Source of the DNA: Clostridia bacterium
Lineage (GTDB): Bacteria; Bacillota; Clostridia; Christensenellales; Aristaeellaceae
NCBI GenBank assembly: GCA_017509255.1
Contig: JAFWQA010000013.1
Span: 1 to 64,000, forward strand
Reading direction: 5' to 3'
DNA: 64,000 bases
The position numbers and the translations under genes are program-made. Every line of letters starts with the position of its first letter. Positions within the stretch are counted from its first letter, which is position 1. Below are positions 1,563 through 11,510 of this stretch, in pieces. The notes below the pieces were generated by a model. That model made no database searches. It was not told the origin of the DNA and worked only from the letters and a program-made list of their open reading frames with translations.

Positions 1563-1604
1563 CCGATCCGCATTCCGGCGCCTGCCGTAAGGGCCGGAAA
1601 AAGC

Positions 1605-1634
1605 AAACCGCCCCCGGTGAACCGGGGGCGGTTT
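1605..1634. terminator. strong hairpin between convergent genes
   Basis: A perfect 14-base inverted repeat around GA (AAACCGCCCCCGGT and its complement) separates the PNPOx-like gene and the first radical SAM gene. Reading on the minus strand it is followed by GCTTTTTCC, so it should end the radical SAM transcript. Termination of the plus transcript is less certain because the T tract there is weak. Confidence 0.75.
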
Positions 1635-1683
1635 ATTCAATTCGCTCAAAGATGTCAGGAATCATTGCGCCCGGACAGCAGGA

Positions 1684-2838
1684 TCACGGGGCAGGCTGTG
1701 TCTGCGAACCGTCTTTTCCGTTTTCCGAAAAGGGAACCAGACCTGCCACGGCTGCCCGGCGGGCCAGCTCACAGAAAACCGGATTCGCGTGTCCGTAAGG
1801 CGCGTTCATGGCATGGTGCGCGACGCAGGTATCGCAGAATCCGGAATACGCGCAGCCGGCACACTCGACCGGAGCGGGGAAATCCACGATCTGCTCATGG
1901 ATCTTCCGCCATGCTTCGCGGAAACCGGTCTGCAGCGGCTCAGCCGAGATGCCGCGGAAATCAATACAGGGATGCATGGTGCCGTGCCAGTCCACGGTGT
2001 AGGCGCTGCGCGCGGCACCGCAGGAAATTATGGGCTTTTCGCCGCTGCAGGAGCCGCCCGTGGGAGGAAGATCCGATTCCGCCACGGGCGTGTAAAGGGG
2101 CAGGCCGAGGAGCTCCCGTTTCACCTTTTCCAGATGGATCGTTTTCTCATAATCCGGCCGGTGAGAGGCGCGCCCGGTCTCCGCGCGCGGCGGGACCAGC
2201 ATCCGGTTGAGATTGAACCGGAAGCCGTTCTTATGCAGAAGGCGGAGGATCTCCTCAGCATCCTCCATTTCAGCGCTCGGGGTGACTGCCGCGGTGACCT
2301 TCAGACCGGCATCCCGCAGGGCAAGCATGTGGGAGAAGACGGTATGAAAGACCCGATGCCCGGTGACCTTTTCATAGGCATCCTCACTGCTGCCGTATAA
2401 AGAGATCTGAATATTGACCGGCTGACGGCGCTGGAGAAAGGAAATCATTTCTTCATCCAGGAGGACCCCGTTTGACAGAATGACCGTTTCTGTTCCGCGG
2501 TCCCCCAGAAAGGAATAGAGCTCCTTAAAGCCGGGGTGGGTCAGGCACTCGCCGCCGGTCAGCGTGGCGGTGAGGAGCCCTTCCGCGATCGCCTGGCTCA
2601 TCAGCGACTTCCAGGTGTCCGTGTCCAGAGGCTTTGCCCTGTCCAAATGGACGTAGCACATTTTGCAGTCCAGATTACATAGCGGGGTCAGCTCAAAGGT
2701 GCCGTCTATGGGGATGCCCCGGGCACGGGCTTTTTTGACAAGCGCCTTTCGGAAGGCGTCTGTTTTTGATTCCTGAGAGGTCCCTTCCTCTGCTATGCGC
2801 GAAACAGTATTCAGGAGGCTGCCATCATATTCGCTCAT
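1684..2838 (-). CDS. radical SAM/SPASM peptide maturase (paralog 1)
   Basis: This 384-residue protein has the CxxxCxxC motif (CNLDCKMC, Cys54, Cys58, Cys61) that binds the S-adenosylmethionine [4Fe-4S] cluster, then a TLTGGECLTHP strand typical of the radical SAM barrel. The C-terminal third is a cysteine-rich SPASM domain (CSGEK, CGAAR, HPCIDF, ECAGCAYSGFCDTC, FCELA) expected to hold auxiliary Fe-S clusters. Such proteins usually modify ribosomal peptides. It is closely similar along its whole length to the protein encoded at 5849-6976, including the N-terminal SLL-TVSR segment. The gene lies 62 bases behind a PNPOx-like gene on the same strand. No separate precursor gene was found beside it, so it may act on the peptide encoded at 5634-5792 or on a peptide elsewhere. 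Confidence 0.88.
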   Translation of the reverse strand: MSEYDGSLLNTVSRIAEEGTSQESKTDAFRKALVKKARARGIPIDGTFELTPLCNLDCKMCYVHLDRAKPLDTDTWKSLMSQAIAEGLLTATLTGGECLTHPGFKELYSFLGDRGTETVILSNGVLLDEEMISFLQRRQPVNIQISLYGSSEDAYEKVTGHRVFHTVFSHMLALRDAGLKVTAAVTPSAEMEDAEEILRLLHKNGFRFNLNRMLVPPRAETGRASHRPDYEKTIHLEKVKRELLGLPLYTPVAESDLPPTGGSCSGEKPIISCGAARSAYTVDWHGTMHPCIDFRGISAEPLQTGFREAWRKIHEQIVDFPAPVECAGCAYSGFCDTCVAHHAMNAPYGHANPVFCELARRAAVAGLVPFSENGKDGSQTQPAP

Positions 2839-2900
2839 TCAAATACCAAGCCCTTTCATTTTCAGATCCGGTCTGCGGGCGGGACGGGCGATGACCCGAA

Positions 2901-3296
2901 TCAGAAGGTGATCGTTTCGGGCGCGGCGGTGAAGGAGCAGAAGGTGGCAGTGGCATTCTTCAGATACAGCACGGCGATCTTACCGTCATCGGGGCTGTAC
3001 ATGCCCTTCAGGGCGGGGTTGGCTTCCAGCATGGCAACGCGGGATTCCCGGCGGACGTCCTCATGGGCTTCCGCTGCCAGGCGGATCCACTCGCCGCCAA
3101 CCATGCCGCTGATCTCGACCTTCGGGTTTTTCATGATCTGCTTATAGACGTCCTTCTGATTGCTGGTGATCAGACAGAGCCTGCCGTCAATGGCGCAGAC
3201 GGCGCCGAAGGGGCGGACGCGGGGCTGACCGTTTTCATCCACGGTGGCCAGATAGAAGGTGCCGGCTTTTTTCAGAAACTCCAATGCTTTTTCCAT
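2901..3296 (-). CDS. cytosolic pyridoxamine 5'-phosphate oxidase family protein
   Basis: The 131-residue protein is a compact PNPOx-like split barrel. It has FYLATVDENGQPRVRPF near the N terminus, then GRLCLITSNQKDVYKQI and NPKVEISGM, the usual order in the small flavin-binding subfamily of anaerobes. No signal peptide is present. The start at 3296 has AAAGGA nearby. It lies upstream of the first radical SAM gene on the same strand, so co-transcription is likely, and it is divergent from the MscS gene. A role in flavin-dependent reduction or detoxification is possible; the substrate cannot be read from the sequence. Confidence 0.85.
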   Translation of the reverse strand: MEKALEFLKKAGTFYLATVDENGQPRVRPFGAVCAIDGRLCLITSNQKDVYKQIMKNPKVEISGMVGGEWIRLAAEAHEDVRRESRVAMLEANPALKGMYSPDDGKIAVLYLKNATATFCSFTAAPETITF

Positions 3297-3322
3297 ATCA
3301 AACGATCCTTTCTGTTCTTTGC

Positions 3323-3351
3323 TTGATTCTGCCTGAGGATATCTTTATAAT
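3323..3351 (+). promoter_or_regulatory. promoter of the MscS gene
   Basis: TTGATT (3323-3328) and TATAAT (3346-3351) are separated by 17 bases and point at the MscS gene, whose start codon is about 85 bases further on. Confidence 0.6.
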
Positions 3352-3435
3352 ATACGGGAGAAAAGAAAAAAACAAGCATGGGATACCGAAACCGGATCGG
3401 GCGGCTGCCGGATGACCGGGAGGAAAGGAAGAAAA

Positions 3436-4266
3436 ATGCCGGATTTGAATGTGACACCGGATCAGGAGACTGTGGAGCAGTATATCGATATCATCCGACA
3501 GGTGGACTGGCTGACCGCGGCGAAGAGCGTCGCGCTGCTGATCGTCGGCCTGTTCATGGTGCGGCTGATCGTGCGGCTGCTGGACAAGGGGATCAGGAAA
3601 ACCAAGATCCCGGACTCCCTGCATTCCATGATCAAGACGGGGGTCCGCATCATTCTGGATCTGGTGGTCATCCTGTCCGTGCTGTCCATGCTGGGCATTC
3701 CCGTGACATCCTTTGTGACACTGATCGGCCTGGCCGGCCTGGCTTTGTCCCTGGCCATTCAGGGCGTGCTGAACAATCTGGCCGGCGGCCTGATCATACT
3801 GGGAAGCAAGCCCTTCAAGGTCGGCGATTTTGTGGAGGCGGACGGGGTGATCGGCACGGTGCGGGATATCCGCATGATGAACACCCAGCTGGAATCCATT
3901 GACGGAAAGGGCATCTATATTCCGAACAGCAGACTGTATACCGCGAGGATCATCAACTACAACCAGACGGGGACGCGCCGGGTGGACATCAGCCTGTCCG
4001 CCGCCTATACGAACAGCCCGGAGGAAGTGAGGAAGGCTGCCTTCAGCGCGGCAAAGAGCACGCCGAAGGTGCTGCAGGATCCGGAACCGAAGCTGATCAC
4101 CGAGGAATACGGGGAGAGCGCCATTCACTATACACTGTGGGTCTGGTGCAAGGCCTTCGACTATCTGGAGGTCAAGCATGCCGTGACGGAGCGGCTGTAC
4201 ACGGCATTTCAGGAAAACGGCGTGGAGATGACCTATCCGCATCTGAACGTGCATATGAAGGAGTGA
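3436..4266 (+). CDS. MscS-family mechanosensitive ion channel
   Basis: The 276-residue membrane protein has three hydrophobic helices in its first 120 residues. The third, pore-lining helix has the small-residue pattern GLAGLALSLAIQGVLNNLAGG, followed by the beta-domain start KPFKVGDFVEADGVIGTVRDI and the IPNS segment that mark MscS channels. A cytosolic alpha/beta vestibule follows. It releases solutes on membrane stretch during hypo-osmotic shock. ATG 3436 is chosen because GGAGGAAAGGAAG lies just before it; an earlier ATG at 3412 lies upstream of that site. The gene sits between the two halves of the radical SAM cassette but has its own promoter and need not belong to it. Confidence 0.93.
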   Translation: MPDLNVTPDQETVEQYIDIIRQVDWLTAAKSVALLIVGLFMVRLIVRLLDKGIRKTKIPDSLHSMIKTGVRIILDLVVILSVLSMLGIPVTSFVTLIGLAGLALSLAIQGVLNNLAGGLIILGSKPFKVGDFVEADGVIGTVRDIRMMNTQLESIDGKGIYIPNSRLYTARIINYNQTGTRRVDISLSAAYTNSPEEVRKAAFSAAKSTPKVLQDPEPKLITEEYGESAIHYTLWVWCKAFDYLEVKHAVTERLYTAFQENGVEMTYPHLNVHMKE

Positions 4267-4325
4267 AGCGCGCGGGAGCAGCCGGGGGCGCCGGGCGGGA
4301 GGAATTGTTTTTTCCGATTTTTTTA

Positions 4326-4354
4326 TTGCACGATGATTTGTTTTCTTTTATAAT
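4326..4354 (+). promoter_or_regulatory. promoter of the HPr-kinase-like/PqqD gene
   Basis: TTGCAC (4326-4331), a 17-base spacer and a perfect TATAAT (4349-4354) lie 55 bases before the start codon. The region from 4310 is markedly AT-rich compared with its surroundings. Confidence 0.7.
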
Positions 4355-4408
4355 TTACAAAAGATACTGTGTTCAGAATTGAATCGTGTCATAGAATGAA
4401 AGGAATTC

Positions 4409-5542
4409 ATGATGATCGAGGTCGCCGGATTCAGATATCAGGTTGAAGGACAGCTGCCCTCGTCCTTCGACGCCTTTCGCGTGCCCGATGCCGGAGAGGC
4501 GGACGGGGAGATCCGGATCATTGAGAAGGCTTTTGAGGATCTGGACAGCGTGACAGGGAGGGGCACCCATGAGGAACTGGTGGTGGGCCGGCTGAAGGAC
4601 GGCTGCTGGTTCTATATGCTGACCAGGTACCCGGAGGCGGCACAGATGACTGCCACCCCGGATTACAGGAAGTTGTGCCTGTACCTGCCGCCGGAGCAAA
4701 GCGGTAAAGCCCAGTGGATCAATACCGTGCTGCTGCTCCGGACCGCCATTGAATGCAAATTCGGGGAGAAGGGCATCCTCTCCCTGCATTCCGCGTGCAT
4801 ACAGAAGGACGGGGAAGCCGTCGCGTTTACCGGACGCTCCGGCATGGGCAAGTCCACCCGGGCAAGAGCCTGGCATGAAGCCCTGGGAGCGGAATGGATC
4901 AGCGGGGACAGGCCTGCGGTGGATATATCCGGGGACAGCCCGGCCATATGCGGAGTGCCGTGGGACGGAAAAGAGCAGCTGTTTGTGAACGCGCGGTATC
5001 CGCTGAAGGCGATCCTGGAGGTGCGCAGGGGAAGGGAAACCTGCGTGCGGAGGATGACTCCCGCCCAGGCAAGAAAGCTGCTGATGCAGCAGACCCTGAT
5101 GCCCATGTGGGACAACGACGCCGCCTTCCGCGCGTGGGGCGTGGTCAACCGGCTGAGCAAAAGGGCAAGAATTTACCGGGTATTCTGCGGTCCGGACGGG
5201 CAGGCGGCCAGAGAGGTGTACGCTATCCTGTACCGGTATCCTGAAAAAATAATGAAAGCGGGGAAGGACATGAGGATCAGAGACGGATTTGTACTGCGGC
5301 AGGTAATGGGTGAGCCTGTTGTGATGCCGACAGGAGACAATATCGGGAAATTTGAGGGCGCTGCCGTCCTCAACGAGGTATCGGAATTTATCTTTAACAA
5401 GCTGCGGAATCCGATCTGCAGGGAGGATCTGCTGCGCGCGATCCTGGAAGAGTACGACGTGGACGAGGAAAAAGCCGGCAAAGACCTGGACGCTTTCCTG
5501 AAAAAGCTGAAGGATCTGGACATCCTGGAAAGCGAAGAATAA
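4409..5542 (+). CDS. HPr-kinase-like P-loop protein fused to a PqqD-type domain
   Basis: This 377-residue protein combines two modules. Residues about 110-275 resemble the HPr kinase/phosphorylase catalytic fold: LHSACI (126-131), a Walker A loop GRSGMGKST (142-150) and a downstream SGDRPAV segment. Residues about 285-377 resemble PqqD, with a strand-rich start (LRQVMGEPVVMP) followed by helices ending KKLKDLDIL. PqqD-type domains bind leader peptides of RiPP precursors, and HPrK-like kinases occur in some lasso-peptide and related clusters, where they phosphorylate the peptide. The gene converges on the precursor candidate at 5634-5792 and lies between two SPASM proteins. I infer that it binds and possibly phosphorylates the peptide. 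Two ATG codons (4409, 4412) are possible; AAAGGA lies at 4399-4404. Confidence 0.8.
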   Translation: MMIEVAGFRYQVEGQLPSSFDAFRVPDAGEADGEIRIIEKAFEDLDSVTGRGTHEELVVGRLKDGCWFYMLTRYPEAAQMTATPDYRKLCLYLPPEQSGKAQWINTVLLLRTAIECKFGEKGILSLHSACIQKDGEAVAFTGRSGMGKSTRARAWHEALGAEWISGDRPAVDISGDSPAICGVPWDGKEQLFVNARYPLKAILEVRRGRETCVRRMTPAQARKLLMQQTLMPMWDNDAAFRAWGVVNRLSKRARIYRVFCGPDGQAAREVYAILYRYPEKIMKAGKDMRIRDGFVLRQVMGEPVVMPTGDNIGKFEGAAVLNEVSEFIFNKLRNPICREDLLRAILEEYDVDEEKAGKDLDAFLKKLKDLDILESEE

Positions 5543-5585
5543 TATACCCTGACGGACATTTCCGAAAAGGGCGGATAAAGCAAAA

Positions 5586-5615
5586 CCCCGGATGCTTATG
5601 AACAAGCATCCGGGG
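5586..5615. terminator. bidirectional terminator between kinase and precursor genes
   Basis: CCCCGGATGCTT and its exact complement form a 12-base stem around ATGAAC. The plus side is followed by ATTTTGTCTGTTT and the minus side by TTTTGCTTT, so it can end both convergent transcripts. Confidence 0.85.
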
Positions 5616-5633
5616 ATTTTGTCTGTTTCAATG

Positions 5634-5792
5634 TCAGCCGTTCACGGGGACGGGATTGTCGCTCTTGCAGTCGCCGCCGGAAACAACCACCCATTTGGTG
5701 CCCAGCTCAGGATTGCTGTACGCAACCACCTGATCCTGATAGTTGAAGGAAACGACCTCCACCTCAGGGGTTTCATAAGTACGCTTTGCCAT
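5634..5792 (-). CDS. candidate RiPP precursor peptide, 52 residues
   Basis: ATG 5792 is chosen because AAAGGAGG precedes it by about 10 bases; a start at 5816 would overlap that site. The peptide opens MAKRTYETPEVEVVSF, a Tyr-x-x-Pro-x-Val-Glu-Val pattern that I associate with leader peptides of small radical-SAM-linked peptides in Firmicutes. It continues with a polar/hydrophobic middle and a Val-Val-Val-Ser-Gly-Gly segment (residues 35-40). A double-glycine cut would release a 12-residue core DCKSDNPVPVNG with one Cys, one Ser and two Pro. The gene lies 56 bases behind the second radical SAM gene on the same strand and converges on the PqqD-fused kinase gene. Being a precursor is an inference from size, motif and place. 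No protease or exporter gene is adjacent. Confidence 0.65.
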   Translation of the reverse strand: MAKRTYETPEVEVVSFNYQDQVVAYSNPELGTKWVVVSGGDCKSDNPVPVNG

Positions 5793-5848
5793 AATAAGAG
5801 ATCCTCCTTTCTCCATGGATAAAAGTTAAACGCCGAAGCGCCAACCGC

Positions 5849-6976
5849 TTAAGGATTTTTGCCCAAATCGACCAGACCGGCTTTGGCGGCCTGACGGGCA
5901 AATTCACAGACGTCCGGATGAGCGTGTCCTGCCGGGGCGCCCATGAGGATGTGCCGGGCGACACATTTGTCGCAGAACCGGGCATAAGCACAGCCTGCAC
6001 ACTCGATCAACCCCGGGTGACTGACGATCCCGGATGACATTTCCTTCCACGCGGCATGGAAACCGGTTTTCAGCGGCTCCGTGACGATGCCGGGAAAGTC
6101 CGCGCAGGGATTCATCTGCCCGTGCCAGTTCAGCAGGAACTGGCTTCGGGCCGCGCCGCAGCTGATCAGGGGCTGTGTTCCGGTGCAGGGGCCGCCCGTG
6201 GGGGGAAGATCCTCTTCCCGGATGGGGGGATACATCGGCAGGCCGGCGATCTCCCGTTTCAGCTTCTCCAGACGGATCATCCGATCCATGCCGATCGGAT
6301 CTGCCGTGCGGCCTGTTTCAGACCGGGGCGGGGAAAGCGTGCGGTTCAGGCGGATGAAAAAGCCGTTTTCATGCAGAAGGCGCATGATGCTTTCCGCATC
6401 CTCCATATCCGCGCTGGGAGTGACTGCCGCCGAGACGCGCAGCCCCGCATCCCGCAGAGCCAGCATATGGGAGAAGACCGTGTGGAAAACCCGGTGGCCG
6501 GTGACCTTCTCATAGGCGTCATCGCTGCTGCCGTAAAGGGAGATCTGGATCTCATACGGCTTACGGCGAAGGAAGAAGGCGATCATGTCCTCATCCACGA
6601 GGACCCCGTTCGTACAGACGACGGATTTTATACCGCGGTCCGCAAGGAAGGAATAAATCTCCTTAAACCCGGGATGAGTCAGGCATTCACCGCCCGTGAG
6701 CGTCGCCCAGAGGAGACCTTCTTCAATGGCCTGGTCCATCAGGGCTATCCAGGTCCCGGTATCCAGGGGTTTTGCCTTTGCCAGATGGACGTAACACATT
6801 TTGCAGTCCAGGTTGCAAAGCGGCGTCAGCTCAAAAATGCCGCTGACCGGGATCCCTTTGGCTCTCGCCTTTTTGCGGATCAGGTCGTGAAAGGCGTTTT
6901 CCACTTTGCCGGGGGAAGCGCCTTCGCCGGACAGGCGGGAAACAGTACTCAGAAGACTGTTTTCTTCCTGACTCAT
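5849..6976 (-). CDS. radical SAM/SPASM peptide maturase (paralog 2)
   Basis: The 375-residue protein carries the CNLDCKMC cluster motif (Cys45, Cys49, Cys52 from the chosen start), the WATLTGGECLTHP strand, and SPASM cysteines near the C terminus (CTGTQ, CGAAR, NPCADF, ECAGCAYARFCDKC, VCEFA). ATG 6976 follows GGAGGG and gives an N terminus matching paralog 1; an upstream start at 7003 lacks a site. It is the first gene of a short operon with the precursor candidate and has an inverted-repeat-rich leader. Family knowledge suggests a cross-link, thioether or epimerisation on the peptide; the reaction type is not predictable from the sequence alone. Confidence 0.9.
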   Translation of the reverse strand: MSQEENSLLSTVSRLSGEGASPGKVENAFHDLIRKKARAKGIPVSGIFELTPLCNLDCKMCYVHLAKAKPLDTGTWIALMDQAIEEGLLWATLTGGECLTHPGFKEIYSFLADRGIKSVVCTNGVLVDEDMIAFFLRRKPYEIQISLYGSSDDAYEKVTGHRVFHTVFSHMLALRDAGLRVSAAVTPSADMEDAESIMRLLHENGFFIRLNRTLSPPRSETGRTADPIGMDRMIRLEKLKREIAGLPMYPPIREEDLPPTGGPCTGTQPLISCGAARSQFLLNWHGQMNPCADFPGIVTEPLKTGFHAAWKEMSSGIVSHPGLIECAGCAYARFCDKCVARHILMGAPAGHAHPDVCEFARQAAKAGLVDLGKNP

Positions 6977-7028
6977 GTCACCCTCCGAACACCGTTTCTG
7001 CACGGGTCAGTGCTGTGGGCAAACCACA

Positions 7029-7084
7029 CGTCAGAATAAAAATCTGACGGTATTCTTGTAACACAATGTAATAGTGTTCGTCAA
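7029..7084 (-). promoter_or_regulatory. promoter region with two inverted repeats before the radical SAM-precursor operon
   Basis: On the minus strand TTGACG (7084-7079) is followed after about 18 bases by TACAAG, a weak -10 candidate. Between them lies AACAC-N9-GTGTT (7060-7078). Further into the leader CGTCAGA and TCTGACG form an exact 7-base repeat around 7 bases (7029-7049). The first may be an operator, the second an operator or a leader hairpin. No regulator gene is adjacent, so the factor is unknown. Confidence 0.4.
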
Positions 7085-7187
7085 GTAGTTGTACGGTCCT
7101 CCGGAAAGGTTTTTTCACGGAAAGAGAAAAATAACGAAAAGAAGATATGTTTTTACAATTCTATGGAACGTGTGTTCCGATCGCCCG

Positions 7188-7856
7188 TCAGGCGCGGATC
7201 CGGTCCCCGCGGATCAGTTCCCGGACGATCTGGGCAATATCCCGGTGGTGAACGGCGCGGGGCTCAAAGTGCTGCAGGTTATAGACCAGCTGCATGATGA
7301 AGCCGGAGCCGACGGTGCTGATCAGCGTTCCGATGCCGACGGGGCCGCCGAGCAGCCATCCCGCCAGCAGGACGATCGCCCAGAGGAGGATCTCCACCAG
7401 GCCGATGGGCAGTTTCGGGACGCGCTTGCCCAGACCGACGAGCAGGGAATCCCGGGGGCCGCAGCACTGCGCCGCGAGCATATAGATCCGCATGCCGAGC
7501 GCCATGAAAACAAAGCCGGCGAGCATGATCGGGATGCCGAGCCAGAGGCTGGTATTGAGCGGCAGGGGATCGAGATCGTTGAAAAGCTGGACGAAATTGC
7601 CGGTCAGAAGCGCGTCAATGACGGTGCCGAAGCCGATGCGCTCCTTCAGGAGCAGGTCAATGATGAGAATGATGACCGCCATGAGCGTCATGGACAGGCC
7701 GTAATTCAGGGGCGTGTGTTTCGCGATACCCATGCCCAGACAGTCCCATGGGGCAAGGCCGATATTGGCGAAGATCGTAAGATGGACGCCGAAAGCAAAA
7801 ATCAGAAGCCCCAGAACGATCCGGAGCCATTCTGTCACAATTCTTTTCCGAAGCAT
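7188..7856 (-). CDS. YczE/YitT-type integral membrane protein
   Basis: The 222-residue protein has five or six hydrophobic helices and the pattern of the YczE/YyaS/YitT group: an early ANIGLAPWDCLGMGIAKHT segment, a central conserved CCGPRDSLLVGL, and GGPVGIGTL before the last helix. Members are multi-pass membrane proteins of unclear molecular function; B. subtilis YczE affects lipopeptide production indirectly. The gene stands alone, 180-210 bases from the radical SAM operon on the same strand, and I see no firm link to it. The last 25 residues are charged and cytosolic. Confidence 0.82.
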   Translation of the reverse strand: MLRKRIVTEWLRIVLGLLIFAFGVHLTIFANIGLAPWDCLGMGIAKHTPLNYGLSMTLMAVIILIIDLLLKERIGFGTVIDALLTGNFVQLFNDLDPLPLNTSLWLGIPIMLAGFVFMALGMRIYMLAAQCCGPRDSLLVGLGKRVPKLPIGLVEILLWAIVLLAGWLLGGPVGIGTLISTVGSGFIMQLVYNLQHFEPRAVHHRDIAQIVRELIRGDRIRA

Positions 7857-7923
7857 TACCGTATTTCCTTATATTAAACTCCGCAGAGCATTGCTTTGCG
7901 GAGAAAATTGTATCACAGGAGAA

Positions 7924-8010
7924 GATAAGCCGGCCGTTCTTTGTATGTTTTTACTGACGGTTCAGGCGGATCTCGCGGCGCCCGAGAGCGGCGTCGTATT
8001 CCAGCTGTTT
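7924..8010. repeat. direct repeat copy 1, remnant of thioesterase 3' end
   Basis: About 87 bases match 9636-9720 with roughly four substitutions and one single-base indel. On the minus strand it still encodes the C-terminal residues of the thioesterase (EYDAALGRREIRLNRQ then TAA at 7953-7951; the intact gene has K for the E). It has no gene upstream of it and is therefore a broken 3' fragment. The TAA of the secreted-protein gene (8011-8009) lies at its inner edge. Confidence 0.85.
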
Positions 8011-9520
8011 ATTCCCCGAAGACGAGGACAATAGGATCGGTGCGGAGCATTGATCCAAAGCTGATCGCCTGCACCGCGACCGTGTGGATCTCTTCCACAT
8101 TCTGAAGGCCAAAGTCTTCCGGCGAAATCGCCAGATAATAGAGAGGAATGTCAGGCTCTGACCAAACAAGGGAAGAAGGATCTCCCTCATAAGGTTTCCC
8201 GTTGACTTCCAGGTTCTCCAGGGCCATGACGGGAATATCTCCTTCGATGCCGGTTACCCCGATACTCAGTACAACAGCATCATCATCGACTTCATACATT
8301 GGAAGATAAACCCAGTAAGGATCCTCGAAATGCTCCCCGTATAAACCCAGGGAGTCTCCATCCAGATCAATTGCAAAGGTTCCTTCTTTCACCGCGGGCA
8401 GCCGAATCCCCGCGTCATCCTCAACAGGATGCGCGAAAACAATATCTTCAAATGATTCCTCTTCAGGAATCCCTTCATCTTCCGATACCGCAGACTCCTG
8501 CTTCTCCGCCACGCCGATGCCGTCAAAAACCAGCGTAAACGGTTCGCTCTGCAGAAGCCCGTCGATCCCGCCGCCGGCCGCGCCAAGCGTAAAGGAGATG
8601 GTTTCCACAGGCACGGGCAGTTTGCCATCCGGCATCCTGACCGGTATTTCGAAACCGTTCCAACCGAAATTTTCGGCCGGTTTCCCGTTCACCGACATGT
8701 CTATCGTGAATAAGGAAAGACTGTCTTTATCCAGTTCCGTAGTCACCGACAGGCCGATTGAGCCTTCATCCGGTCCGAGTGTGACGGAAACCACCCGGAC
8801 TGTCAGCTGTTCATTGCTCATCAGTGAGGCTGTGTCATATACGGGGAACTCCGCGCCGGATCCATCCGGAACCGGAAGATGGATCTCTCCCTTCGCGGCA
8901 TCCGTCAGATAATCGCCGAGCAGATGTATCGGAAATACAACCGCCAGACTCCGGCGGGTATCCTCCCTGCCATATTCCTGCGCGATCAAACTGATCCGGA
9001 CGGTCAGATCTTTCAGATCGGGATTGGAAAAAATATAGGGATCCTCACCGGATGAACCGGCAGGGAAGCTGCTGAAGGCGCTGTCATTCCGCAAAACCAT
9101 CTCTTCGCCGCCGACAGTGACAGCGACGCGCGTCATCACTTCAAGGCCGGTACCGTGATCGTTTGTAAAGCGCAGCATCATGGAATTATTGCCGTTCCCA
9201 TCGGTGTACAGACCGGTCAACCAGACTGTCATATCCAACAGACTCATGACCAGATTATCGGCAACAATTGTCTGATTGGCATAGATCTCTGCCGTTTTGC
9301 CGGTTTGCTCTTCCCCGATATCAGCAAAAAGGTTTATCTCCGGGACGGATCCGCTCTGCTGCTGTGCCGGCGCCTGAGACGGATCTTCCTGTCCGGCATC
9401 CGGATCGTACCATCCGGATGCTTCTCCGACGACATCAGCAGAAGCGCCTGATTCCGTTCCCGCAAGCGCTGCCACGCAAAGCAGCAGACAAAGAGTAAGC
9501 GAGATCATCCGTTTAAACAT
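8009..9520 (-). CDS. secreted protein of unknown function, 503 residues
   Basis: ATG 9520 follows AAGGGG at about 8 bases; a GTG at 9529 overlaps less well. Residues 1-28 form a signal peptide (MFKRMISLTLCLLLC, cleavage probably after ASA). The mature protein is acidic, has no cysteine-rich or catalytic motif that I recognise, and seems built from several similar beta-sandwich-like units (phrases such as MLRFTNDHGTGLEV, VNGKPAENFGW and VNGKPYEGDP recur in style). That suggests a repetitive extracellular scaffold or ligand-binding protein. The gene has its own promoter and sits alone between two copies of a thioesterase gene end, so it may be recently acquired or relocated cargo. Function unknown. 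Confidence 0.75.
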   Translation of the reverse strand: MFKRMISLTLCLLLCVAALAGTESGASADVVGEASGWYDPDAGQEDPSQAPAQQQSGSVPEINLFADIGEEQTGKTAEIYANQTIVADNLVMSLLDMTVWLTGLYTDGNGNNSMMLRFTNDHGTGLEVMTRVAVTVGGEEMVLRNDSAFSSFPAGSSGEDPYIFSNPDLKDLTVRISLIAQEYGREDTRRSLAVVFPIHLLGDYLTDAAKGEIHLPVPDGSGAEFPVYDTASLMSNEQLTVRVVSVTLGPDEGSIGLSVTTELDKDSLSLFTIDMSVNGKPAENFGWNGFEIPVRMPDGKLPVPVETISFTLGAAGGGIDGLLQSEPFTLVFDGIGVAEKQESAVSEDEGIPEEESFEDIVFAHPVEDDAGIRLPAVKEGTFAIDLDGDSLGLYGEHFEDPYWVYLPMYEVDDDAVVLSIGVTGIEGDIPVMALENLEVNGKPYEGDPSSLVWSEPDIPLYYLAISPEDFGLQNVEEIHTVAVQAISFGSMLRTDPIVLVFGE

Positions 9521-9606
9521 CCACAACACCCCTTCTTGCTTCGATATGGTCCATGTGTATTTTTCACTGCATTCTGAAGTTCTGCATGATGTTCAGATGA
9601 GTGTTT

Positions 9607-9634
9607 ATTGTATCCGAAAAAAGCGGCGTGTCCA
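9607..9634 (-). promoter_or_regulatory. promoter of the 503-residue secreted protein
   Basis: On the minus strand TGGACA (9634-9629), 16 bases and TACAAT (9612-9607) precede the gene by about 90 bases. It overlaps an imperfect AGCGGC/GCCGCT hairpin with a TTTTTT tail that should terminate the thioesterase transcript. Confidence 0.5.
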
Positions 9635-9635
9635 C

Positions 9636-9720
9636 GATAAACGGGCCGCTCTTTGTATGTTTTACTGACGGTTCAGGCGGATCTTGCGGCGCCCGAGAGC
9701 GGCGTCGTATTCCAGCTGTT
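9636..9720. repeat. direct repeat copy 2, intact thioesterase 3' end
   Basis: This copy contains the authentic last codons and stop (TAA 9664-9662) of the thioesterase gene plus about 26 bases of downstream sequence. It matches 7924-8010 across coding and noncoding parts, so the repeat is a DNA duplication and not a shared protein motif. Confidence 0.85.
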
Positions 9721-10108
9721 CATCCTCCGAGTCCGGCGTGAAGGGAGGGACAGCCGTGGGACGGTCACTGTCATCCAGCGCGACAAAGACCAGATAGGCC
9801 TTGTTGATCAGCCGGCGGGTGCCGTCCAGACGCTCCACATAGCTGTCCACACGGACCTCCAGGGAGGTATGGCCCGCCCAGGTGACGCGCGCCTCCTGGA
9901 CCACCGTGTCGTTGAGGTAGGCCGGGGCAATGAAGTTCAGGTTGTCAATGCAGACGGTGGTGACCGCCGTGCCGGCATAGCGGCGGGCGGCGACGGCGCC
10001 GATGATGTCGATCCAGGACATGATCTGGCCGCCGAAAAGACGGGGGACTTTATATCCGTTGCAATGCTGCGGAAGAACGATCTGAACGCCGGAAGTAACG
10101 GGCTGCAT
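9662..10108 (-). CDS. acyl-CoA thioesterase, hotdog fold
   Basis: The 148-residue product fits one hotdog domain of the acyl-CoA thioesterase (YciA/BACH) family: VPRLFGGQIMSWIDIIGAVAARR is the conserved substrate-site helix region, followed by TVCIDNLNFIAPAYLNDTV. It hydrolyses acyl-CoA thioesters in the cytosol; the preferred chain length is not readable. ATG 10108 is preceded by AAGGAGG; the reading frame runs further upstream but without a second site. The 3' 60 bases are duplicated at 7951-8010. Confidence 0.88.
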   Translation of the reverse strand: MQPVTSGVQIVLPQHCNGYKVPRLFGGQIMSWIDIIGAVAARRYAGTAVTTVCIDNLNFIAPAYLNDTVVQEARVTWAGHTSLEVRVDSYVERLDGTRRLINKAYLVFVALDDSDRPTAVPPFTPDSEDEQLEYDAALGRRKIRLNRQ

Positions 10109-10182
10109 GGGCTGACCTCCTTCGTGACGGTGATTCCGGCGCCTATTGTAGCATGAACCGGGGAAAATGAAAAGCACGGGAA

Positions 10183-10211
10183 TTGATGATCCGCTCCGAT
10201 TCTGATATAAT
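10183..10211 (+). promoter_or_regulatory. promoter of the NAGPA-type gene
   Basis: TTGATG (10183-10188), 17 bases and TATAAT (10206-10211) precede the start codon by 73 bases. Confidence 0.65.
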
Positions 10212-10283
10212 AACAAACCCCGGGCAGGACCCGGAGCAAAGCATGACGCGCCGCACGGAAAACGGCAACGGAGAAGCAAAGGA

Positions 10284-11510
10284 ATGGTAAAAAGGTTACT
10301 GAAAAGGTACGGCCCGCTGATATTGGCGCTGGTACTGACGCTGACGGTGTTCGCCGCGGGCGGGGAGGCGGAGGCGCTGACCCGGACCCTGCGCAAGGGA
10401 GACAGCGGGGATCTTGTGCTGGAGATCAAGAACAGGCTGTACGACCTGGGATACTATACAAAGAGCCGGAAATTCGGCAAGCAGTTCAACGAACAGATGG
10501 AGGAGCTGATCATCAGCTTCCAGGAAAGAAACGGGCTGGAGCAGACCGGCGAGATCGATCAGGCGACATATGACACGCTGTATTCGGAAACAGCGGTCAA
10601 AATGCCGCGGCCGACGCTGGCTCCCCTGGCGACCCCGGGCCCGGCGCCGGAGCCGGACTGGCCGGAGCGCGACGCGGACGGATATCTGGACGGGGACGGG
10701 GAATACTTTTACGAAAACGATGAGGAAGGCCTGTGGATCTATCTGGGAAAGAACCTGCAGATCCGTATCCGGCGCTGCCGGGACGAGAGGAAGGAGCTGA
10801 GCTGGTTCGAGACGGACATCCGGACCCGGAACGGGGAAGCCTTCCGGACGGTGGCGACAAACCCGGACAAGCCCGGGAAGCAATACCGGTATCCGTTTGA
10901 CATCGCGGCGGACGAGCATTTTGTGCTCGGCTTCTCGGACGATTTTTACGCCGAGCGGATGAAAAAGAAGAGCGCGGACCGGCCGGGCATCATCATCCGA
11001 AGCGGAGCGATCTACAGCGATCTGACCAACAGCAAGACCGGACACCACCTGCCGAACCTGGACATGATGGCCCAGTATCCGGACGGGAGCCTGAATGTGT
11101 ACCTGTGCAACGAGCTGACCGCGGAGGAGCTGCTGGAAAAGGGCGCGGTGAACGTGTTCAGCTTCGGGCCGTATCTGGTGAGGAACGGTGAGATCAACCC
11201 GCTGGTGTATGACTATTACCGGAGCATTGAACCGCGGCACGCGCTGGGCATGATCGAACCGGGGCATTACCTGCTGCTGTCGGTGGAGGGAAGGACGCGG
11301 AGCAGCAAGGGAACGATGCTGCAGCGGGTGGCGGAGATGATGCGGGAGCACGGCGTGCGGGAGGCGCTGAACCTGGACGGGGGCAACACGATGGCGCTGA
11401 TCTTCCGGGGGAGGATGCTGAACAAGCTGGCGACCTACAAAAACAAGGAATTCGTGCGCACGGTGACCTCTCTGATCGGGATCGGATACACGGACAATAT
11501 CGAAGAGTGA
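10284..11510 (+). CDS. secreted NAGPA-type phosphodiester glycosidase with peptidoglycan-binding domain
   Basis: The 408-residue protein has a signal peptide (residues 1-34), a PG_binding_1 domain at about 37-105 (LRKGDSGDLVLEIKNRLYDLGYY ... FQERNGL) and a short proline-rich linker. A DUF2233/NAGPA catalytic domain follows, with hallmark strand ALNLDGGNTMALIF near residue 365 and SFGPYLVRNGEI. Homologs cleave phosphodiester-linked sugars; in bacteria several act on surface or cell-wall polymers. The segment DGYLDGDGEYFYENDEEGLW closely resembles one in the fusion protein encoded at 56767-58626, so the two are paralogs. The gene has its own promoter and a terminator, so it is a single-gene unit. 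Confidence 0.85.
   Translation: MVKRLLKRYGPLILALVLTLTVFAAGGEAEALTRTLRKGDSGDLVLEIKNRLYDLGYYTKSRKFGKQFNEQMEELIISFQERNGLEQTGEIDQATYDTLYSETAVKMPRPTLAPLATPGPAPEPDWPERDADGYLDGDGEYFYENDEEGLWIYLGKNLQIRIRRCRDERKELSWFETDIRTRNGEAFRTVATNPDKPGKQYRYPFDIAADEHFVLGFSDDFYAERMKKKSADRPGIIIRSGAIYSDLTNSKTGHHLPNLDMMAQYPDGSLNVYLCNELTAEELLEKGAVNVFSFGPYLVRNGEINPLVYDYYRSIEPRHALGMIEPGHYLLLSVEGRTRSSKGTMLQRVAEMMREHGVREALNLDGGNTMALIFRGRMLNKLATYKNKEFVRTVTSLIGIGYTDNIEE

Follow-up and report, generated by a model that had tools for sequence, protein, structure and literature searches.

A recurrent clostridial RiPP cassette with radical SAM/SPASM enzymes, an HPrK-like/PqqD fusion protein and a short precursor peptide

The cassette at the start of the contig

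The stretch of DNA analysed here (hereafter the window; 64,000 nucleotides, positions 1 to 64,000 of contig JAFWQA010000013.1, assembly GCA_017509255.1, from a Clostridia bacterium) is the start of a contig (C46) in a genome of 2.5 Mb that is 74% complete. Near its left end lie four genes with the makings of a cassette for a ribosomally synthesized and post-translationally modified peptide (RiPP), namely two radical S-adenosylmethionine (SAM)/SPASM enzymes, a fusion of an HPrK-like kinase with a PqqD domain, and a gene for a 52-residue precursor. All four had been proposed in an earlier reading of this DNA, referred to below as the original prediction, and Pfam models, NCBIfam models and a leader profile now identify each of them at its proposed place. 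The cassette and its immediate surroundings are as follows.

1684..2838, minus strand: radical SAM/SPASM maturase 1, 384 residues (Pfam Radical_SAM, E 6e-17)
4409..5542, plus strand: HPrK-like kinase with a C-terminal PqqD (RiPP recognition) domain, 377 residues (Pfam PqqD, E 1.8e-10)
5634..5792, minus strand: precursor peptide gene, 52 residues, with a leader profile match and a GGAGG ribosome site
5849..6976, minus strand: radical SAM/SPASM maturase 2, 375 residues (Pfam Radical_SAM, E 5e-14)
5586..5615, minus strand: intrinsic terminator 3' of the precursor gene, 13-pair stem and T tail (consensus scan)
1604..1635, minus strand: intrinsic terminator 3' of the maturase 1 gene, 14-pair stem and T tail (consensus scan)
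2901-3296, minus strand: PNPOx-like gene, between maturase 1 and the MscS gene
3412-4266, plus strand: MscS channel gene, between the PNPOx-like gene and the fusion

On the minus strand the precursor gene comes after maturase 2, at a distance of 56 bases; the maturase 2 frame has an ATG start at 6976, and a longer version of it starts at 7003. The proposed flanking of the P-loop protein by the two maturases holds for their positions, but the fusion is encoded on the other strand, and the MscS and PNPOx-like genes separate it from maturase 1.

The precursor can be divided at a putative border into a leader region, YETPEVEVVSFNYQDQVVA, followed by a core, YSNPELGTKWVVVSGGDCKSDNPVPVNG. A leader profile built from 59 other peptides, with the window peptide excluded, matched the precursor frame at E 7.8e-13 and matched no other segment at E up to 10 among the 1483 six-frame window segments of at least 20 residues; 5634-5792 is thus not a chance open reading frame (ORF). 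Across the whole genome, too, the precursor is the sole match at an E value of 10 or less, and its gene is preceded by the GGAGG ribosome site and followed by a strong terminator. No second precursor, for maturase 1, was found in the window. At the start of the window core (5703-5720), YSNPEL forms another YxxPxL motif such as RiPP recognition elements (RREs) bind; it may be a chance occurrence or a second docking site.

Recurrence of the cassette and its peptide family

Scanning a collection of named genomes yielded 40 loci, 33 of which carry the fused ORF; gene labels were assigned with our own profiles and score limits, and a neighbourhood was defined as the region within 6 kb of the fusion. 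The 33 fusion loci are not all independent, as L077 and L080 are near twins and L065 and L069 come from one isolate; loci L033-L052, for the most part duplicates of named loci, were left out of the counts. SPASM enzymes occur in 31 of the 33 neighbourhoods and leader-homologous peptides in 30, of which 12 have two or more; SipW-like signal peptidases (SpI) are present in 27, MsbA-like ABC exporters in 24 and NTP transferases in 9. The two properties on which the original prediction had been made to depend, co-occurrence of HPrK-PqqD with SPASM proteins elsewhere and conservation of the small ORF beside its flanking genes, are thus both borne out. L067 and L069 show neither a SPASM enzyme nor a counted peptide; the L067 fusion has flanks of 3.8 and 2.9 kb on a 7.8-kb contig, and 184 bases separate the start of the L069 fusion from the contig end. 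The remaining locus without a counted peptide, L091, is on a 5.3-kb contig. A frequent gene order is peptidase, SPASM enzyme, peptide(s), fusion and exporter, and other orders also occur. The cassette in the window is a real, recurrent RiPP cassette.

Most related loci are titled Clostridia or Lachnospiraceae. Among 200 genomes of the window's family, the fusion protein has a match of some kind in 71; the matches listed mostly span just one of its halves. In the window's genus (45 genomes), the fusion occurs in 5 and the SPASM enzyme in 12, with all 5 fusion genomes among those 12, a coincidence with a chance of about 7 in 10,000 by our own arithmetic; three further SPASM genomes of the genus (G597, G600 and G610) carry a separate kinase and PqqD protein beside the SPASM gene. 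A class-level sample of 391 genomes contains 23 that match the fusion at 1e-30, the window's own included. Only 7 of these matches span both parts, and the 6 other than the window's own cross stop codons and so look like adjoining separate genes. The fusion thus occurs commonly in the family of the window, as it does in some Lachnospiraceae, and the class-level sample gave no fused form outside these groups. A plasmid search returned three records, from Butyrivibrio, Prevotella and Phocaeicola, none covering 80% of the query; the Butyrivibrio plasmid carries a split cluster of kinase, PqqD protein and S24/S26 peptidase without a listed radical SAM gene, and the Prevotella record is unannotated. 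Split and fused arrangements can lie side by side: in L072 (at 18933) and L095 (at 11539), distant SPASM-like proteins with split PqqD and HPrK adjoin the fused cassette of the same locus. L068, from an assembly titled Coriobacteriia, contains a full cassette, and its SPASM enzyme groups with that of the Clostridia locus L065 (support 99/94), which has a like sample name; this placement reflects either transfer between phyla or a binning error.

Peptide candidates were picked by a YxxP pattern or by a profile seeded with the window peptide, so that the Y and P of the candidates are given, and the profile built without the window peptide serves as the check. Of 68 candidates, 60 were kept for Ser and Cys counts; the 8 others were dropped by judgement (3 chance-like ORFs, 2 of a fixed-core type and 3 divergent). 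Anchored on YxxP, the leader reads K-K-x-Y-E-x-P-x-(A/V)-E-K-(L/V/I)-x-F-D-Y-x-x-x-V-V-A-S. Among the 68 candidates, position +10 is F in 56, position +12 is Y in 51, position +18 is A in 53 and position +19 is S in 42. The sequence past the leader shows no such constraint, the pattern to be expected where a leader gives way to its core. With that border set by our own pattern, on which the count depends, 59 of 60 peptides have a Ser at core position 1, 2 or 3 (the 60th being unparsed), against 28% expected from core composition. Cys is present in all 59 cores that could be parsed for it (one kept peptide could not), at least two in 55, and the leaders are almost Cys-free; two-Cys cores with 7-19 residues between the cysteines form the dominant type (33 of 59). 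A separate group of peptides (L108:7216 on the minus strand, L110:6653 on the plus strand and L116:7282 on the minus strand) has a near-identical core, NGDVGxGRGRGGGCDGVPYHRNxRxFSSGRNSGC, on different leaders, an arrangement unusual for a variable RiPP family. These peptides adjoin SPASM enzymes, and those of L108 and L116 occur with a stand-alone PqqD protein and no kinase label.

Maturases, fusion protein and co-variation with the core

The Pfam SPASM domain is detected below cut-off in maturase 1 (E 0.045) and is not reported for maturase 2. In an alignment of 48 SPASM sequences, the cysteines of the CxxxCxxC motif (C54, C58 and C61) and the auxiliary cysteines C273, C291, C326, C329, C338 and C357 are invariant, as expected of SPASM-type radical SAM maturases of the sactipeptide/ranthipeptide kind, and C335 is kept in at least 90% of the sequences. 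The solved structures nearest to the family profile are SkfB (E 7.6e-29), a thioether-forming enzyme, 5v1q (E 2.3e-16), presumably SuiB, and PqqE (E 6.7e-14). Neither window maturase reaches a curated maturase cut-off among the models listed. The two share 66% identity and are sisters in the tree with support of 100/100, a duplication private to the window's lineage; among the 11 other loci with two SPASM sequences in the tree the two are never sisters. In a scan of PHROG families, which did not include maturase 1, maturase 2 matched two generic radical SAM families, and the fusion and the peptide matched none; viperin models matched both maturases (best 3e-10 and 7e-12) and not the fusion. 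We read these matches as generic radical SAM similarity and set a phage or defence origin aside.

In the fusion protein, the PqqD domain covers residues 288-377 or so, and the P-loop region resembles the NCBIfam models HprK_rel_B (E 1e-6) and ScmC (E 1e-4), neither match reaching its cut-off. A profile of 14 fusion relatives matches the RRE proteins of lasso peptides in its C-terminal part (TbiB1, E 3.8e-5; TfuB1, E 4.7e-5) and weakly matches HPr kinase in its P-loop part (E 0.06-0.11), and alignment places the GDRP motif of the fusion on the HPrK ADDR motif. GDRP and PWDGKE do not vary across 32 aligned fusions, and the P-loop hardly does; this conservation is partly a product of selection, because the collection scan that fetched 31 of the 32 used the patterns GKSTRAxAW and GVPWDGK.

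The distances between cores, SPASM enzymes and fusions were compared across 42 SPASM/peptide neighbours, 35 of them with a fusion, after removal of one near-identical SPASM enzyme from 43. Core distance correlates with SPASM distance (r 0.35, p 0.0002, 42 pairs, by a statistic that ignores shared ancestry), and still does once fusion distance is removed (r 0.30, p 0.0002, 35 pairs). Fusion distance correlates weakly with core distance by itself (r 0.09, p 0.047), and not once SPASM distance is removed (r -0.06, p 0.86). As core distances track the SPASM enzyme, and not the fusion once the SPASM enzyme is accounted for, these comparisons suggest the core as the target of the SPASM enzyme and some common element as that of the fusion. 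The nearest SPASM enzyme and the nearest core agree in 11 of the 42 rows. Core types follow SPASM branches, with CTW(Y/L)SG cores accompanying the enzymes of L063, L094 and L070; the same branch holds L064, whose core carries CTYDDG.

The SipW-like peptidases of the family match signal peptidase I models below cut-off in one member (6e-11) and in a second (6e-4), and not in a third, and the peptidase of the Butyrivibrio plasmid cluster is annotated as an S24/S26 peptidase. In 54 sequences, repeats included, the conserved residues are Ser (53), His (53) and Asp (54), at positions like those of the LppS triad of the linear polyphosphorylated peptide (LPP) system considered below.

Relation to known systems and interpretation

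The LPPs of Bacillota, as given in the accessible portion of Popov et al. 2026 (PMC13381572), to which all statements about them here refer, are made by a SipW-like peptidase, a discrete RRE, an HprK-like kinase, an NTP transferase and an MsbA-like exporter acting on YxxP leaders. The HprK-like kinase LppK phosphorylates core Ser3 of the YxxP-leader peptide, the peptidase LppS cuts the leader with the help of the RRE, and capsular genes are among the neighbours (PMC13381572). The cassette family has in common with LPPs the YxxP leader, a PqqD-type RRE, an HprK-like kinase, a SipW-like peptidase and an MsbA-like exporter; by homology the fusion would qualify as an HprK-like kinase in the LPP sense, with scores below curated cut-offs. 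Further likenesses are the NTP transferase of 9 of the 33 loci and the capsular polysaccharide genes found when 92 of 162 neighbouring ORFs, those on the fusion's strand, were scanned (CpsB/CapC 6, Wzz 4, bacterial sugar transferase 5). The LPP RRE is discrete, whereas here it forms the C-terminal part of the kinase protein, a fusion seen in 33 of the 40 loci; a radical SAM/SPASM enzyme is a constant neighbour here, every parsed core contains Cys, and the words "radical", "SPASM" and "Clostridia" are absent from the accessible text of the LPP paper (PMC13381572). Of the LPP motif YxxPxVLxHQxIxFETxxS, the window precursor keeps YxxPxV but not HQxIxFET, with a Ser at a similar distance. The peptidase, exporter and NTP transferase of LPP clusters are missing from the window copy, unlike 27, 24 and 9 of its 33 relatives. 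What is new relative to LPPs is the kinase/RRE fusion together with its constant SPASM partner.

The original prediction had framed the PqqD domain as a leader binder and the HPrK-like domain as a peptide kinase, pointing to the phosphorylation of some lasso peptides by HPrK-like kinases. Its central idea holds in outline, and by analogy these assignments fit the LPP system (PMC13381572). The prediction did not include two components found in most loci, an ABC exporter and a protein resembling signal peptidases, which make the cassette LPP-like rather than lasso-like. Paeninodin-type lasso peptides, as described in the accessible portion of PMC13381572, likewise combine RRE-type leader binding with an HprK-like kinase, but have a Trp in the leader motif where the present leaders have a Tyr. 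The sole sign of a lasso B2 protease (PF13471) is a match of 21.3 bits against a cut-off of 26, on a different contig of the 74% complete genome, and the macrolactam cyclase is not among the 25 commonest of the 87 families in the 92 scanned neighbours. With no B2 protease above cut-off and no lasso enzyme among these commonest families, we set a lasso reading aside. In their accessible portions, a 2014 survey of anaerobes reports HPr kinase in lasso clusters, a rumen lasso survey reports HPr kinase and PqqD in lasso clusters and does not contain the word "radical", and a Bacteroidales survey mentions a histidine kinase only.

Membership in the predicted SynChlorMet cassette (NCBIfam TIGR04248-TIGR04251) was rejected on scores of 21.6 of 125 bits for ScmC and 57.4 of 400 for ScmE, and of 22 of 100 for ScmD in a relative; the ScmF score also falls far below its curated cut-off. 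That cassette, which we take to contain two SPASM enzymes, a PqqD-like protein and an HPrK-related protein, is presumably a partial precedent, and is not mentioned in the open-access literature searched. The claim that the combination is undescribed stands for that literature and is tempered by SynChlorMet: in the accessible text of the open-access papers searched, with subscription papers and preprints outside, no SPASM/HPrK-PqqD system is described. As in sactipeptide and ranthipeptide systems (maturases SkfB, AlbA and PapB), a SPASM enzyme adjoins a Cys-containing precursor, but here the PqqD domain is on the kinase and not on the maturase, and no curated maturase cut-off is reached among the models listed. 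In ThnB, a PqqD domain is reportedly fused to the modifying enzyme.

We propose, at a probability of roughly 0.6, that the cassette is a radical-SAM branch of LPP-like RiPPs in which kinase and leader binder are fused. The PqqD domain of the fusion would bind the YxxPxV leader of the 52-residue precursor, the HPrK-like domain would phosphorylate the Ser at the core start, and the SPASM enzyme would introduce a second change into the core, most likely a thioether at Cys; a SipW-like peptidase and an MsbA-like ABC exporter would then free and export the product, acting from elsewhere in the genome in the case of the window copy. In the window core, the Ser of the initial YS is the predicted site of the phosphate and the single Cys that of the link, with leader cleavage predicted near VVA. 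The genes, their recurrence, the homology of the leaders and the co-variation of core with SPASM enzyme are observed; the catalytic steps, the binding of the leader and the presence of both changes on one molecule we infer. A more far-reaching version holds that gut and rumen Clostridia have a widespread, undescribed family of RiPPs: a kinase with its own leader binder would phosphorylate the first core Ser, a core-specific SPASM enzyme would cross-link the same peptide at Cys, a signal-peptidase homologue would cut it before export, and the fusion would be a hub for several interchangeable SPASM/core modules per genome; this version is tentative, and we put it at somewhat short of even odds.

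Several observations weigh against the proposed pathway, and they are best considered with the alternatives that they favour. The peptide may be radical-modified but not, or not always, phosphorylated, with the fusion acting mainly as a leader carrier or serving other precursors and its kinase half idle or optional. A Gly replaces the first Asp of the HPrK ADDR motif in every one of the 32 aligned fusions, although 21 of the 24 rows of split kinases from related loci, some of them repeating a locus, have this Gly too; the replaced Asp matters in HPr kinase, so that kinase activity of the fusion is not certain. Leader distance does not track fusion distance once SPASM distance is removed (r 0.07, p 0.19) and tracks SPASM distance with fusion distance removed (r 0.42, p 0.0002), which either speaks against a simple view of the fusion as the only protein that reads the leader or reflects a YxxP dock so conserved that no co-variation can show. 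In addition, 4 of the 12 SPASM genomes of the genus have no kinase match and 3 of those have no PqqD match either (G614 has a PqqD match only; G195, G608 and G616 have neither), so that SPASM enzymes may act without kinase or PqqD: G195, 89% complete, carries two SPASM/peptide pairs, and G091 has SPASM genes in three separate loci and one fusion, with no kinase or PqqD near two of the loci. The kinase-less genomes are weakened as evidence by the 60% completeness of G616 and by the position of the G608 SPASM gene within 0.5 kb of a contig start, and an idle kinase fits poorly with the P-loop, GDRP and PWDGKE being invariant or nearly so in 32 fusions (partly by selection), with the Ser that 59 of the 60 peptides have where the core begins and with the phosphorylating role of HprK in the LPP system (PMC13381572). 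On balance we regard this alternative as unlikely.

Compatible with the rest of the proposed pathway is a change other than a thioether, such as another carbon-based side-chain cross-link, an epimerisation or an oxidation, with the cysteines disulfide-paired after export. The lack of a curated maturase match for the window enzymes among the models listed, the rank of 5v1q as second-best solved relative and the spacing in the dominant two-Cys cores, which fits a disulfide loop, speak for it; SkfB as best solved match speaks for a thioether, and an intra-core disulfide cannot be the rule, given the single Cys of the window core and of three others (L034_6045, L066_8227 and L094_8204). We consider such chemistry possible, at odds clearly below even. 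A single Cys in the window core, against two or more in 55 of the 59 parsed cores, also raises the question of whether this copy still functions. The fusion is encoded opposite both SPASM genes and converges with the precursor and maturase 2, unlike the 31 other loci with fusion and SPASM enzyme, in which a SPASM gene shares the fusion's strand; no SpI, exporter or NTP transferase lies near the cassette, in a window that begins at the contig end; the first Cys of the usual pair is missing; and one SPASM gene has no peptide. These features would suit a rearranged remnant without function. All four ORFs are nevertheless intact, the cluster cysteines are kept, the ribosome site and terminators are in place, and the missing genes could lie past the contig end, since the cassette edge (maturase 1) is 1.7 kb from the contig start and the neighbours beyond it are unseen; we hold a remnant to be improbable.

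The peptidase/exporter set found in this genome, with one SipW-like signal peptidase match, sits on contig C11 in a second cluster with its own kinase, PqqD protein and radical enzyme, which likewise counts against the pathway as proposed for the window copy.

L052 (G000:C11:126000-138175), 4541-10356: second cluster of the same genome, with NTP_transf_5, MsbA-like exporter and signal-peptidase-like protein

The HPrK and PqqD of this cluster are split, its radical SAM protein is of another type (471 residues), and no convincing YxxP precursor was found in it. That its peptidase and exporter serve the window cassette is a guess.

If the proposed pathway is correct, two RiPP chemistries, radical C-H chemistry and phosphorylation, would be joined in one pathway, the LPP logic would extend to gut and rumen Clostridia, and one leader-binding kinase would work with swappable maturase/core pairs in a modular system. 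The carrier Blautia sp. MSJ-9 (L088), whose title unlike most carries no MAG label, appears to be a cultured isolate, which would make direct tests possible.

Beside the cassette in the window, two PNPOx-like genes flank maturase 1, at 1074-1562 on the plus strand and 2901-3296 on the minus strand, and the MscS gene separates them from the fusion. The former is a weak match (E 0.05) whose N terminus looks signal-like by eye.

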